IMG/VR virus record: IMGVR_UViG_3300032560_000095
Span: 1-28,283 of that record
Origin: a virus
DNA length: 28,283 nt
Strand: one strand, 5' to 3'
Shown: piece by piece, positions 19,226-23,938 of the stretch
Layout: every line of letters starts with the position of its first letter
Position numbering within the stretch: position 1 is the stretch's first letter
Translations under genes and position numbers: made by a program
Notes under the pieces: model-generated
Told to the model about the DNA's origin: nothing
Databases searched by the model: none
What the model saw: only the letters and a program-made list of their open reading frames with translations

Positions 19226-19395
19226 TCTTGTGCCTTTCTTAAGTATTCAGCAAGTCTTTCGCCATAAGTTAAAGAATGTATTTCCATTTTCAACGCTTCT
19301 ATTTCAGCTTGTTGCTGGCGTATCGTGGTAACTGCTTCTTGTAAACAAGGCATTGCAGTAAATTCCAATTCCTTAATAAGTTCATTTGCGTTCAT
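19222..19395 (-). CDS. 57-aa coiled-coil protein
   Basis: ATG at 19395, TGA at 19222-19224. The protein MNANELIKELEFTAMPCLQE continues AVTTIRQQQAEIEALKMEIH and ends LRKAQE: helical throughout, with a heptad-like stretch T-T-I-R-Q-Q-Q-A-E-I-E-A-L-K that I recall from many small phage proteins. Its start overlaps the stop of the 87-aa gene, and its stop overlaps the next GTG, so the reading frame is held in place at both ends. Function unknown. Confidence 0.68.
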   Translation of the reverse strand: MNANELIKELEFTAMPCLQEAVTTIRQQQAEIEALKMEIHSLTYGERLAEYLRKAQE

Positions 19396-19655
19396 TCTTG
19401 TGCCTTTCTTAGTGCTTTAGCAGTAGCTAATACAATCTTTTTGTATTTGTTAAATTCTTCCCCAGTTTTCCAAATTTCATGCCCTAGTGGCACAATTTCT
19501 GCATCTTGAAGAATAGCTACTACATTTATCTCCTCATCTGTTAGCGTTTTTGCTGGATGGGTGTAGAGTGGAATATCGTAGTCAGTCTGAATAAAACCTT
19601 CCATTCTTGGCTTGCCTGTGTTTTTATCTATCCACGCTACTGGTTCATTGTTCAT
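19392..19655 (-). CDS. Small phage protein with P-V-A-W / P-L-Y-T-H-P motif, copy 1
   Basis: 87 aa. It has the pattern M-N-x-x-P-V-A-W-I...IPLYTHPAKTLTDEEI and ends LRKAQE. The next gene upstream (19652-19885) has the same beginning and PLY-HPAKTLTDEEI core, so they are tandem paralogues. This P-V-A-W / PLYT-P pattern is common in small phage proteins of unknown function. ATGA overlaps link it to both neighbours. Confidence 0.7.
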   Translation of the reverse strand: MNNEPVAWIDKNTGKPRMEGFIQTDYDIPLYTHPAKTLTDEEINVVAILQDAEIVPLGHEIWKTGEEFNKYKKIVLATAKALRKAQE

Positions 19656-19885
19656 TTCTCACTAGCCTTTCTTAGTATTGCTCTAGCAATTTGAATTGCA
19701 AACCTATGAGGAACATCCCAACAAGTCCCAATATCTTCATTTACTTTGATTATTTCTTCATCTGTTAGTGTCTTTGCTGGATGAATGTAGAGTGGAATAC
19801 CGCCATCATAATTAACTTTGTTGTCGTGTTTAATGCACATATATGCACCATCTTTTTCAAACATCCACGCTACTGGTTTGTTCAT
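19652..19885 (-). CDS. Small phage protein with P-V-A-W / P-L-Y-I-H-P motif, copy 2
   Basis: 77 aa, paralogue of the 19392-19655 product: MNKPVAWMFEKDG, GGIPLYIHPAKTLTDEEII and a final ILRKASEK. Between the shared ends the two copies differ, so the duplication is old or the copies are diverging quickly. A run of G on the minus strand just before the ATG at 19885 (GGGGGG) can serve as ribosome-binding site. The start overlaps the stop of the 32-codon membrane gene. Function unknown. Confidence 0.7.
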   Translation of the reverse strand: MNKPVAWMFEKDGAYMCIKHDNKVNYDGGIPLYIHPAKTLTDEEIIKVNEDIGTCWDVPHRFAIQIARAILRKASEK

Positions 19886-21270: not shown

Positions 21271-22071
21271 ATGCACTACTACCAACACAATATTGGGGAT
21301 TATCGGAAAGATACTTCTCATCTATCGTTGCTTGAGCATGGAATTTATAGGCAACTTTTAGATAGTTATTATTTGGATGAAATTCCTTTAAGTAATGACC
21401 TTGCGAAGCTTATGCGTTCGCATAGCGTTCGGACTGCGGAAGAACAGCAATCGCTTCAAAACGTATTAACAGACTTCTTTGAATTGACTGAATTTGGGTA
21501 TATTCATAAAAGATGCGAGGATGGAATAGCTAAATTTCATGGTAAATCAGCTAGTGCTAGAGCATCCGCAATGGCTCGCTGGAGCAGTAAACATAAGGAA
21601 GTTGATGCGAACGCAATACCAACGCAATCCGAAGGCAATGCTAACCATAAACCAATAACCAATAACCATAAACCAATAAAAAACATACAGCCTATCGGCT
21701 TTGATTTATTTTGGGATGCTTATGATAAAAAAGTAGGCAAACCAAATTCACTAAAGGCATGGTCAAAAATAGCCTTCAAAGACGATTTATTACAAAAAAT
21801 TGTTGAAAAGGCTAAAGCAGACAAAAAAGCCAAGCCTGATAACAAGTTTAGGAAAGACCCTGAACGCTGGTTAAAAGGTCAGCATTGGCTGGATGAGGTG
21901 GTAATTGAGCAAGCTCCTGAAGAAAAGCTAATGCCTTTAGGTACTGATGCTCAGATTGAAGCTGCTTATAGGATTGAATGTGGTGGAGATCCGAGTAGAG
22001 CCAGGTTCAACAGTTACCAAGAAATGAGGAAATTTATTCTAGATTTTAGGGATAAAAGGAAGGTGGCATGA
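21271..22071 (+). CDS. DUF1376 family protein, replication-associated
   Basis: 266 aa. Residues 1-90 (MHYYQHNIGDYRKDTSHLSL, LEHGIYRQLLDSYYLDEIPL) match DUF1376, found in phage proteins encoded at the position of replication initiators, next to Cro-like genes. A charged linker (about 110-140) with Asn/His/Lys/Pro repeats (HKPITNNHKPIKN) follows, then a C-terminal domain (FDLFWDAYDKKVGKPNSLKA, WLKGQHWLDE) resembling the C-terminal part of phage replication proteins. DNA binding at the origin is the likely role, inferred from family and place. It starts one base after the regulator stop. Its own TGA overlaps the ATGAATG double start of the methyltransferase locus. Confidence 0.8.
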   Translation: MHYYQHNIGDYRKDTSHLSLLEHGIYRQLLDSYYLDEIPLSNDLAKLMRSHSVRTAEEQQSLQNVLTDFFELTEFGYIHKRCEDGIAKFHGKSASARASAMARWSSKHKEVDANAIPTQSEGNANHKPITNNHKPIKNIQPIGFDLFWDAYDKKVGKPNSLKAWSKIAFKDDLLQKIVEKAKADKKAKPDNKFRKDPERWLKGQHWLDEVVIEQAPEEKLMPLGTDAQIEAAYRIECGGDPSRARFNSYQEMRKFILDFRDKRKVA

Positions 22072-22808
22072 ATGAGTTGGCTCTTTTCGAAGGTGCTGGT
22101 GGAGGAATACTTGGGGGACATTTGCTTGGATGGCGAACAGTCTGTGCAGTCGAATGGGAAGCCTATCCAGCAAGCGTATTGTGCGCCAGGCAAAACGATG
22201 GACTTTTGCCGAGTTTCCCAATATGGGATGACGTTCAAACCTTTGATGGAAAGCCTTGGCGAGGAATTGTTGATGTCATTTCTGGCGGATTTCCATGTCA
22301 AGACATCAGCGCAGCAGGAAAAGGGGGGGGCATTGAAGGCGAAAGAAGCGGAATGTGGCGAGAGATGGCAAGGATTATTGGCGAAGTACGACCCAAATAC
22401 GCATTCATTGAAAACAGTCCAATGCTCACTTCTCGAGGACTCGAACGAGTCCTTGCAGATTTGGCCCAAATGGGGTTCGATGCGGAATGGGGTGTGTTGG
22501 GAGCAGACTACATCGGACTGCCCCATCGGAGAGAACGAATATGGGTGTTGGCTTCCGACTCCAGTCACCAGCATGTGGAGAGGCGCAGCAAGCAAAAGAT
22601 ATTGGGGAAGCCAAGATTACAGGGCATCGTTTACAACCGAGTGGATAAGAACGAGCAAGGACTCAGAGCAATACTATCATCCGGATTATGTAGAACTCAT
22701 AATGGACTTTCCGGACAAGTGGACAGAATTAAAGCCATTGGAAATGCACAAGTTCCAAGAGTGGCAGCAACCGCTTTTGAACTCCTTAAAAAACGATTAG
22801 ATGGATGA
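22068..22808 (+). CDS. C5-cytosine DNA methyltransferase
   Basis: 246 aa with the C5-MTase motifs in order: I FEGAGGG (8-14, SAM binding), IV GGFPCQDIS (73-81, catalytic Cys77), VI ENSP (115-118; ENV is usual), VIII RRERIW (154-159) and X IGNAQVP (224-230). The target-recognition region between VIII and X is only about 60 residues, so the enzyme is short for the family. It adds methyl groups to cytosines of a specific site, most simply to protect phage DNA from host restriction; no restriction enzyme is next to it. ATG 22068 overlaps the DUF1376 stop. Unlike its neighbours it uses many C/G-ending codons, and a second ORF covers it in the +1 frame. Confidence 0.9.
   Translation: MNELALFEGAGGGILGGHLLGWRTVCAVEWEAYPASVLCARQNDGLLPSFPIWDDVQTFDGKPWRGIVDVISGGFPCQDISAAGKGGGIEGERSGMWREMARIIGEVRPKYAFIENSPMLTSRGLERVLADLAQMGFDAEWGVLGADYIGLPHRRERIWVLASDSSHQHVERRSKQKILGKPRLQGIVYNRVDKNEQGLRAILSSGLCRTHNGLSGQVDRIKAIGNAQVPRVAATAFELLKKRLDG
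22072..22800 (+). CDS. Overlapping ORF in the +1 frame of the methyltransferase gene
   Basis: 242 codons that cover almost the entire methyltransferase gene on the same strand. It starts 4 bases later (ATGAATG) and ends in TAG directly before the next gene's ATG at 22801. The predicted protein has a start MSWLFSKVLVEEYLGD, then AKYDPNTHSLKTVQCSLLED (104-123), WPKWGSMRNGVCWEQ (131-145), WLPTP (160-164) and YYHPDYVELIMDFPDKWTEL (201-220). I recall these patterns from uncharacterised phage proteins, but cannot say here whether that family is itself always a shadow of methyltransferase genes. It is soluble-looking, with many Trp and Cys. Either it is a second, overprinted gene, or the methyltransferase sequence happens to keep this frame open. 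An opposed ORF of about 190 codons here shows that chance openness must be considered. Confidence 0.5.
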   Translation: MSWLFSKVLVEEYLGDICLDGEQSVQSNGKPIQQAYCAPGKTMDFCRVSQYGMTFKPLMESLGEELLMSFLADFHVKTSAQQEKGGALKAKEAECGERWQGLLAKYDPNTHSLKTVQCSLLEDSNESLQIWPKWGSMRNGVCWEQTTSDCPIGENEYGCWLPTPVTSMWRGAASKRYWGSQDYRASFTTEWIRTSKDSEQYYHPDYVELIMDFPDKWTELKPLEMHKFQEWQQPLLNSLKND

Positions 22809-22986: not shown

Positions 22987-23315
22987 ATCTTGAACAATTA
23001 ACGGAAAACAGGGTGGAAGAAGCATTAATTAAACTTTCTTCTACAGATGAATCTCATGCAGCTTGGGCTGGTCAAGTTAAATACCTTGAGGAAGGCTTAA
23101 AACAGGCTAAGAGCCATTCTTTTCTATTGGCTGAAGGCACAGTAGCAGAAAGAGAAGCAAAGGCTCTATCAAGCGATAAATACGCACAAGCGGTACAAGC
23201 TTGGACTGAAGCTTTAAAACAATTTAAGAAAATAGACAATGAACGCAATCATGAAATGCGGATTATTGATATTTGGCGCACTTTATCTTCTAATCGCAGA
23301 CAAGGAAATATGTAA
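22983..23315 (+). CDS. Helical phage protein, unknown function
   Basis: 110 aa from ATG 22983, which overlaps the previous stop (ATGA) and has GGAGA upstream; the ATG at 22977 is too close to that site. The protein is helical and charged (VKYLEEGLKQAKSHSFLLAE, GTVAEREAKALSSDKYAQAV) and ends WRTLSSNRRQGNM. The GTVAEREAKA...NRRQGN pattern recurs in small proteins of the replication region of many phages, but no function is known to me. The stop overlaps the next start (TAATG). Confidence 0.7.
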   Translation: MNLEQLTENRVEEALIKLSSTDESHAAWAGQVKYLEEGLKQAKSHSFLLAEGTVAEREAKALSSDKYAQAVQAWTEALKQFKKIDNERNHEMRIIDIWRTLSSNRRQGNM

Positions 23316-23938
23316 TGCCTATTAAATTAATTGTTATTCCAATAAAGTCTGAAGAAGCTGTGCCTTGGATAATGGAAAAACATTATGCAAAGCGACTTCC
23401 TTGCATAAGTTACGCTTTTGGACTTTATGAGGAAAATCAATTAGTTGGAGTTGTAACTTATGGTACTCCAGCATCTAACAGTCTTTGTGAAGGTATTTGC
23501 GGTAAAGATTACAAGGAATTTGTGCTTGAATTAAATAGACTTTGTTTGCTTCATAACACTAAAAATCAGTCTAGTTTTTTGGTTGGAAATTCAATCAAAA
23601 TGTTGCCTAAACCTAAAATTATTGTTTCCTATGCAGATACAGCGCAAGGTCATGTAGGTTATGTGTATCAAGCTACAAACTTTTTGTTTACTGGAACTAC
23701 TAAAGAACGCACAGATATGAGTGCTGGTAAAGGAAAACATAGTAGACACGCTACAGACCCATCCATAAGGCAATTTAGAAGCGCAAAACATAGATACATA
23801 TACTTTCATGGCACAAAAACAGACAAAAAATTGTTGCAACGCAAACTTAATTATGATGTTTTGCCTTATCCAAAAGGTGAAACAAAACAATATGATGCTG
23901 GTGGCAAAGTTTTAACTCAATCAATACTTTTCACTTAA
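23315..23938 (+). CDS. Mom-like DNA modification protein (GNAT-type fold)
   Basis: 207 aa. EKHYAKRLPCISYAFGLYEE (21-40), LVGVVTYGTPAS, ELNRLCLLH (72-80) and SYADTAQGHVGYVYQATNF (105-123) follow the pattern of phage Mu Mom and its relatives: E-x-H-Y near the start, a GNAT-like core, and S-[YF]-A-D-x-x-x-G-H-x-G-x-[VI]-Y-Q-A. Mom changes adenines in phage DNA to a carbamoylmethyl form and so protects against many restriction enzymes. The chemistry is inferred for this protein. It lies two genes after the cytosine methyltransferase, which suggests a shared protective role. A different GNAT acetyltransferase function cannot be excluded. The start overlaps the upstream TAA (TAATG). Confidence 0.72.
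   Translation: MPIKLIVIPIKSEEAVPWIMEKHYAKRLPCISYAFGLYEENQLVGVVTYGTPASNSLCEGICGKDYKEFVLELNRLCLLHNTKNQSSFLVGNSIKMLPKPKIIVSYADTAQGHVGYVYQATNFLFTGTTKERTDMSAGKGKHSRHATDPSIRQFRSAKHRYIYFHGTKTDKKLLQRKLNYDVLPYPKGETKQYDAGGKVLTQSILFT

Follow-up and report, generated by a model that had tools for sequence, protein, structure and literature searches.

A predicted two-subunit C5-cytosine DNA methyltransferase encoded in two overlapping frames of a phage locus

Split C5-methyltransferases and the phage locus

The beta polypeptide of the methyltransferase M.EcoHK31I is 176 aa long and is encoded inside the alpha gene in a different reading frame. Both M.EcoHK31I and M.AquI are two-polypeptide C5-methyltransferases (PMC3404938, PMC3439449). 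In M.EcoHK31I (alpha/beta, YGGCCR), motifs I-VIII and X are located on the larger subunit, as is the reported target-recognition domain (TRD), and motif IX on the smaller, and the small subunit of M.AquI carries IX as well as X (PMC3404938). A literature search recovered these two systems and no survey of nested pairs.

The locus analyzed here originates from the virus record IMGVR_UViG_3300032560_000095, a 28,283 nt stretch referred to as the window, and all coordinates are positions within it. A ~740-base stretch of this phage is read as two proteins in two reading frames of the same strand, designated A (frame 0) and B (+1 frame). As the preliminary description reported, both frames are open (A, 22068-22808; B, 22072-22800), the starts are four bases apart (ATGAATG) and the stops eight bases apart, the TAG of B (22798-22800) immediately precedes an ATG at 22801, and GC3 is higher in A than in the neighboring genes (0.40 vs 0.21-0.32).

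The window's pair resembles M.EcoHK31I in that motifs I-VIII and X are on the large A and motif IX on B, the latter as a reading of motifs for which the profile test was not significant. Unlike M.EcoHK31I, for which the TRD is on the larger subunit, the linker between motifs VIII and X is unconstrained in A and constrained in B, and unlike the shorter M.EcoHK31I beta, B spans A end to end. The best reading is that the pair would work like M.EcoHK31I and M.AquI. It is likened to M.EcoHK31I by described motif layout and is not classified as a member because the reported large-subunit TRD differs from the pattern here. M.AquI, too, is naturally divided after motif VIII and ahead of the recognition region, but motif X is in frame 0 (A) in the window. 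The AquI-type split, with IX and X on the small subunit, is present in loci L249, L262-L265 and L299 and in mycobacteriophage Dylan. Homologous pairs are also on record. In Paenibacillus phage Lily (gp62/gp63, NC_028841) both proteins are annotated, gp63 as 'g62 internal gene', DNA methyltransferase, though its B begins internally and lacks the N-terminal extension seen in the window. Dylan gp7/gp6 are likewise homologous to the pair, as a protein with motifs I-VIII and its +1 partner; each carries the annotation DNA methyltransferase, but the overlap is only 209 nt and X is on the partner. The PHROG 1008 label 'DNA methyltransferase' is silent on a nested subunit without catalytic motifs. Two-polypeptide C5-methyltransferases are already known, and the pair described here is a variant of them that is widespread and under-annotated.

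Division of motifs between A and B

The features of the locus, all on the + strand, are as follows.

22056-22071, +: Shine-Dalgarno-like AAGG 5' of both starts, 4 nt from the ATG of A and 8 nt from the ATG of B
22068-22808, +: A, predicted alpha subunit, C5-methyltransferase catalytic domain (motifs I-VIII) and motif X, 246 aa
22072-22800, +: B, +1-frame protein predicted to be the beta subunit, with a variable/TRD-like region and motif IX, 242 aa
22072-22245, +: B codons 1-58, overlapping the first catalytic motifs of A; an N-terminal extension that is apparently derived and predicted to be disordered
22284-22310, +: A motif IV (GGFPCQDIS, catalytic Cys77); P76, C77 and S81 invariant in alignments A1 and A4
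22410-22421, +: A motif VI (ENSP); E115 and N116 invariant
22462-22491, +: B WPKWGSMRNG block, over the region of A motifs VI-VIII; P132 96% and G135 97% conserved
22521-22547, +: A motif VIII (PHRRERIWV); R157 invariant
22549-22563, +: B LPTP module; 0-7 copies in relatives, copy number tracking B length (r = 0.66)
22678-22731, +: B motif IX (HPDYVELIMDFPDKWTEL); E208 and M211 invariant in alignment A3
22725-22757, +: A motif X (RIKAIGNAQVP); R220 and N226 invariant in alignment A1

Along the DNA these motifs follow the canonical single-chain order of I-VIII, variable region, IX and X, with the LPTP module directly after motif VIII. The spacing from the Shine-Dalgarno-like sequence to the start of B peaks at 8-9 nt (226 loci).

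The motifs that identify a C5-cytosine DNA methyltransferase (I, IV, VI and VIII) are all present in A, and a TRD, IX and X in one chain are not. A matches phrog_363 (E 3.6e-61) and PF00145 (E 1.3e-31, residues 4-183), the latter match ending at residue 183. The AlphaFold2 model (mean pLDDT 82.9) has a confident C5-methyltransferase large domain and a motif X helix that follows a linker predicted to be disordered (181-224), with no small domain, and a Foldseek search with it returned M.HaeIII and M.HhaI as best matches (M.HaeIII 1dct, E 2.4e-14 over 172 columns). The preliminary description had assigned all of the main C5-methyltransferase motifs to A, but motif IX and the target-recognition domain are absent, and A does not hold up as a complete methyltransferase. 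Among 251 loci scored by pattern, motif IX was detected in the A protein of none and in the B protein of 220.

B has no family match in Pfam or NCBIfam, but matches phrog_1008 'DNA methyltransferase' (E 6.2e-14), as do 31 of 32 B proteins of relatives. The C-terminus of B resembles motif IX of single-chain C5-methyltransferases (ECAKLMDFPDNYPF; LMDFPDNYPF). A profile comparison of B against single-chain methyltransferases was not significant, so the assignment of motif IX rests on the short block, its position and the fusions found in relatives. Modeled alone, B yields a low-confidence structure (pLDDT 58, mostly <50 for residues 1-58); a structural search of the PDB with this model was empty, and a search of solved structures with the B profile returned nothing credible. 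The ordered motifs that had been attributed to B are in part its own: A does not force the P or the G of WPxWG, but part of WPKWGSMRNG is a forced shadow, with the GFDAEWG of A fully dictating the G of MRNG (G140) and largely dictating W134. LPTP/WPTP modules are repeated up to seven times in the B proteins of relatives (e.g., L249, 2983-4497), and these may possibly represent several recognition domains, by analogy with multispecific phage methyltransferases. Orf14 of Streptococcus pneumoniae phage MM1, labeled 'beta subunit', was considered as a B protein and rejected; its alpha carries both IX and X, and orf14 lacks IX.

Constraint on the +1 frame and competing explanations

The simplest objection to a second gene is that A alone is translated and its composition keeps the +1 frame open. 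A is strongly conserved and, as noted, forces the MRNG part of one B motif. Additionally, the excess in per-column conservation of B over synonymous shuffles, which appeared strong at first, is not specific to the frame; it was dropped as evidence because the +2 and antisense frames gave a similar excess. The distribution of stop codons contradicts this objection. When the A protein and its codon usage are held fixed, synonymous shuffles predict 7.3 +1 stops in the window, where none is seen, and none of 5000 shuffles was free of stops. The comparison set comprised ~290 related loci, and over 187 non-redundant loci there are 41 +1 stops vs 895 expected, compared to 3050 vs 2555 in the +2 frame. 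No +1 stop occurs in the core (codons 69-165; 484 expected) or in the VIII-X linker (199 expected), for a combined 0 vs 683, and the 19 stops within codons 3-58 (115 expected) are all confined to seven distant loci. Free +1 stops in close relatives had been named beforehand as evidence that would refute a second gene; the +1 frame withstood this test, and the freedom from stops applies to close relatives but not to the first ~70 +1 codons of distant ones. In loci collected with the A profile only, 63 of 64 non-redundant loci are wholly open in +1 and 0 of 64 in +2. Of 4111 A-synonymous differences, 6.3% would be expected to create or abolish a +1 stop, and none does. Conversely, the ordinary single-chain methyltransferases used as controls (L255-L259, from a viral scan seeded with frame 0 of L087 that returned only single-chain methyltransferases) have 12-17 stops in the corresponding frame.

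The pattern of selection is also specific to the frame, and the differences silent in A provide the decisive test of this. The B changes that result from A-silent differences are conservative (BLOSUM -0.81 vs null -1.63) in every region, including the N-terminal extension (-0.78 vs null -1.40), over which the +2 frame displays no such conservatism. The third positions of A vary less than those of neighboring genes (pos3/(pos1+pos2) 0.84 vs 1.85, p 1e-20). The overlap-aware dN/dS test called for in the preliminary description was performed, and selection in the stretch from motif VIII to motif X acts on B only: in linker codons 166-215 the A dNN/dSN is 0.88 [0.65-1.17], the one region in which A is not constrained, and the B dNN/dNS is 0.20 [0.14-0.28], the strongest constraint observed on B. 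Neighboring single-frame genes treated identically as a control give 0.74, so the B values of 0.52-0.53 outside the linker offer only modest support; the core (codons 69-165) is modestly below the control at 0.52 [0.40-0.67], and the interval for the N-terminal extension (0.37-0.81) spans it. Combined with the stop depletion, this linker pattern already contradicts a shadow frame, a reading that can be given almost no credence, and the earlier suggestion that one locus gives two proteins is supported, with B as a real gene.

It is very unlikely that B is instead a regulator, or an unrelated accessory protein that was overprinted on a methyltransferase able to act alone. The lack of a Pfam match and of a confident fold speaks for this, but A is without motif IX and a recognition domain, the IX block of B is at the canonical position in the DNA, motif X moves between A and B, and B is found only together with A, always in +1. 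Of the 'partner or regulator' initially proposed, the partner is favored and the regulator less so, because B has a motif-IX block that is missing from A and is fused to motif X in some relatives. Programmed frameshifting or slippage at an A4G8 run (22319-22330) could also join the frames in to one chain. This run is within the overlap and is the sole run of at least seven G in the window, the motif order would suit a join, and the two frames trade places close to it in the MAG locus L231, possibly through a sequencing error or slippage. However, B has an ATG of its own that is conserved in position in 171 of 187 loci, most relatives have GKGAGI-type sequence at this site and not the GKGGGI of the window, and a join at A4G8 would remove motifs VI and VIII, which makes frameshifting very unlikely.

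Both frames are conserved, B is constrained at the protein level, the motifs are split between the chains and motif X changes frame in relatives. The locus very probably encodes one two-subunit C5-cytosine DNA methyltransferase, with beta nested in the alpha gene, and both chains would be translated, would form an active heterodimer and would have an anti-restriction role. A would bind SAM and provide the catalytic cysteine and motif X, and B would provide the target-recognition region and motif IX, such that B must join A for an active enzyme. Both proteins would be made from one mRNA, probably with a single Shine-Dalgarno sequence for the two starts, which lie four bases apart. The neighbors are phage genes, with a primosomal-type replication protein upstream and a Mom-like modification gene downstream, and no restriction gene was recognized among the adjacent genes tested. 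Because no restriction gene was recognized beside the locus and the Mom-like gene is just downstream, the pair would probably modify the phage's own DNA to protect it from host restriction. The downstream gene (23315-23938, +; 0.5 kb away) encodes a Mom-family DNA modification protein (PF25680, E 1.6e-40), apparently giving the phage a second DNA modification function that is separate from the first. Elsewhere in the window, two tandem small ORFs (19392-19885, -) share a PVAWI...IPLY(T/I)HPAKTLTDEEI layout and represent a duplicated small phage protein.

Spread, frame changes and significance of the pair

In an IMG/VR scan with B, all 80 loci listed have A in the same relative frame. As a scan seeded with B is biased towards B, IMG/VR was rescanned with the A profile only, and B was present in 80 of the 80 best loci. 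A genome scan with B listed 80 loci, in which B was likewise +1 relative to an A, in genomes that include Pseudomonas, Acinetobacter, Enterobacterales, Akkermansia, Flavobacterium and an archaeal MAG, among others. Evenly sampled genomes had matches in 16 of 349 Pseudomonadota and 2 of 346 Bacteroidota, each with B in +1 of an A-type gene, and the proposed search for +1 homologues without an overlapping methyltransferase identified no stand-alone B in these genomes. Further pairs occur on plasmids of Leptospira, Bacteroides and Acinetobacter and in E. coli prophages. Most of the 13 phage records inspected annotate A only, and that of Pseudomonas phage phPA-G annotates B only, as hypothetical, with the methyltransferase missed. 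The nested design is widespread in phages and bacteria and almost always half-annotated.

The E. coli PT62 prophage (L293, 2042-3028) has a second phage Dcm gene (MIHAAYYNEIDPFAAQWLRNL...), the +1 frame of which contains WPTP modules and a motif-IX-like LNPAHSRWLMGLP, with similar arrangements in L283-L286; this prophage is read as holding, besides the first pair, an alpha of a second subfamily that also has a nested beta. The E. coli PCP07014 prophage copy (L294, 4000-4761) is flagged as a pseudogene with an internal stop, the +1 frame is interrupted nearby, and both subunits look broken. In the phage locus L094 (MW202674, 1497-1832), each frame breaks off after its first ~30 codons and unrelated sequence follows; the locus is still annotated as a DNA methyltransferase and is read as a deletion remnant.

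The position of motif X differs among relatives. In L249, L262-L265 and Dylan gp7/gp6, A stops after VIII and motif X is fused to the end of B, and mycobacteriophage Wachhund gp69 has I-VIII, LPTP modules, IX and X in one chain, with the first half of B still present in its +1 frame. In a catalytic-domain tree, L262-L265 form a supported group within the main clade, the other members of which mostly keep X in A, and Dylan is outside of this clade; a formal count also allows single origins. Read most simply, A and B jointly form a single enzyme, and a segment can move from one frame to the other and leave the complex as it was. As the DNA keeps the single-chain motif order, the most likely origin is that the variable region and IX came to be read in +1 from a new start within the catalytic domain, and that this frame was subsequently lengthened at its 5' end. 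In phages of Stenotrophomonas, Bacteroides and Paenibacillus and in a Flavobacterium, B is present only from approximately residue 50-75, with stops before it. Because distant relatives have stops there and the window's clade keeps the ATG of B, the simplest interpretation is that the first ~58 codons are a derived extension, by now maintained, that brings the start of B to four bases from that of A.

We lean towards the view that the same-strand, fully nested pair is an old and widespread architecture for two obligate subunits (phages, several bacterial phyla and an archaeal MAG), in which colinear methyltransferase modules switched frame repeatedly, LPTP specificity units were gained and lost in the overlapped frame, and the window's clade took the overlap to its extreme as it grew a new N-terminus over the catalytic motifs. 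The pair provides a clean natural test of joint selection on two frames: alignable loci number in the hundreds, and in some stretches one frame is constrained and the other free. Should the two-subunit reading be true, many phage and prophage 'DNA cytosine methyltransferase' genes would be half of an enzyme with an unannotated recognition subunit, A would be inactive when cloned alone, and predictions of specificity made from A would have no meaning.
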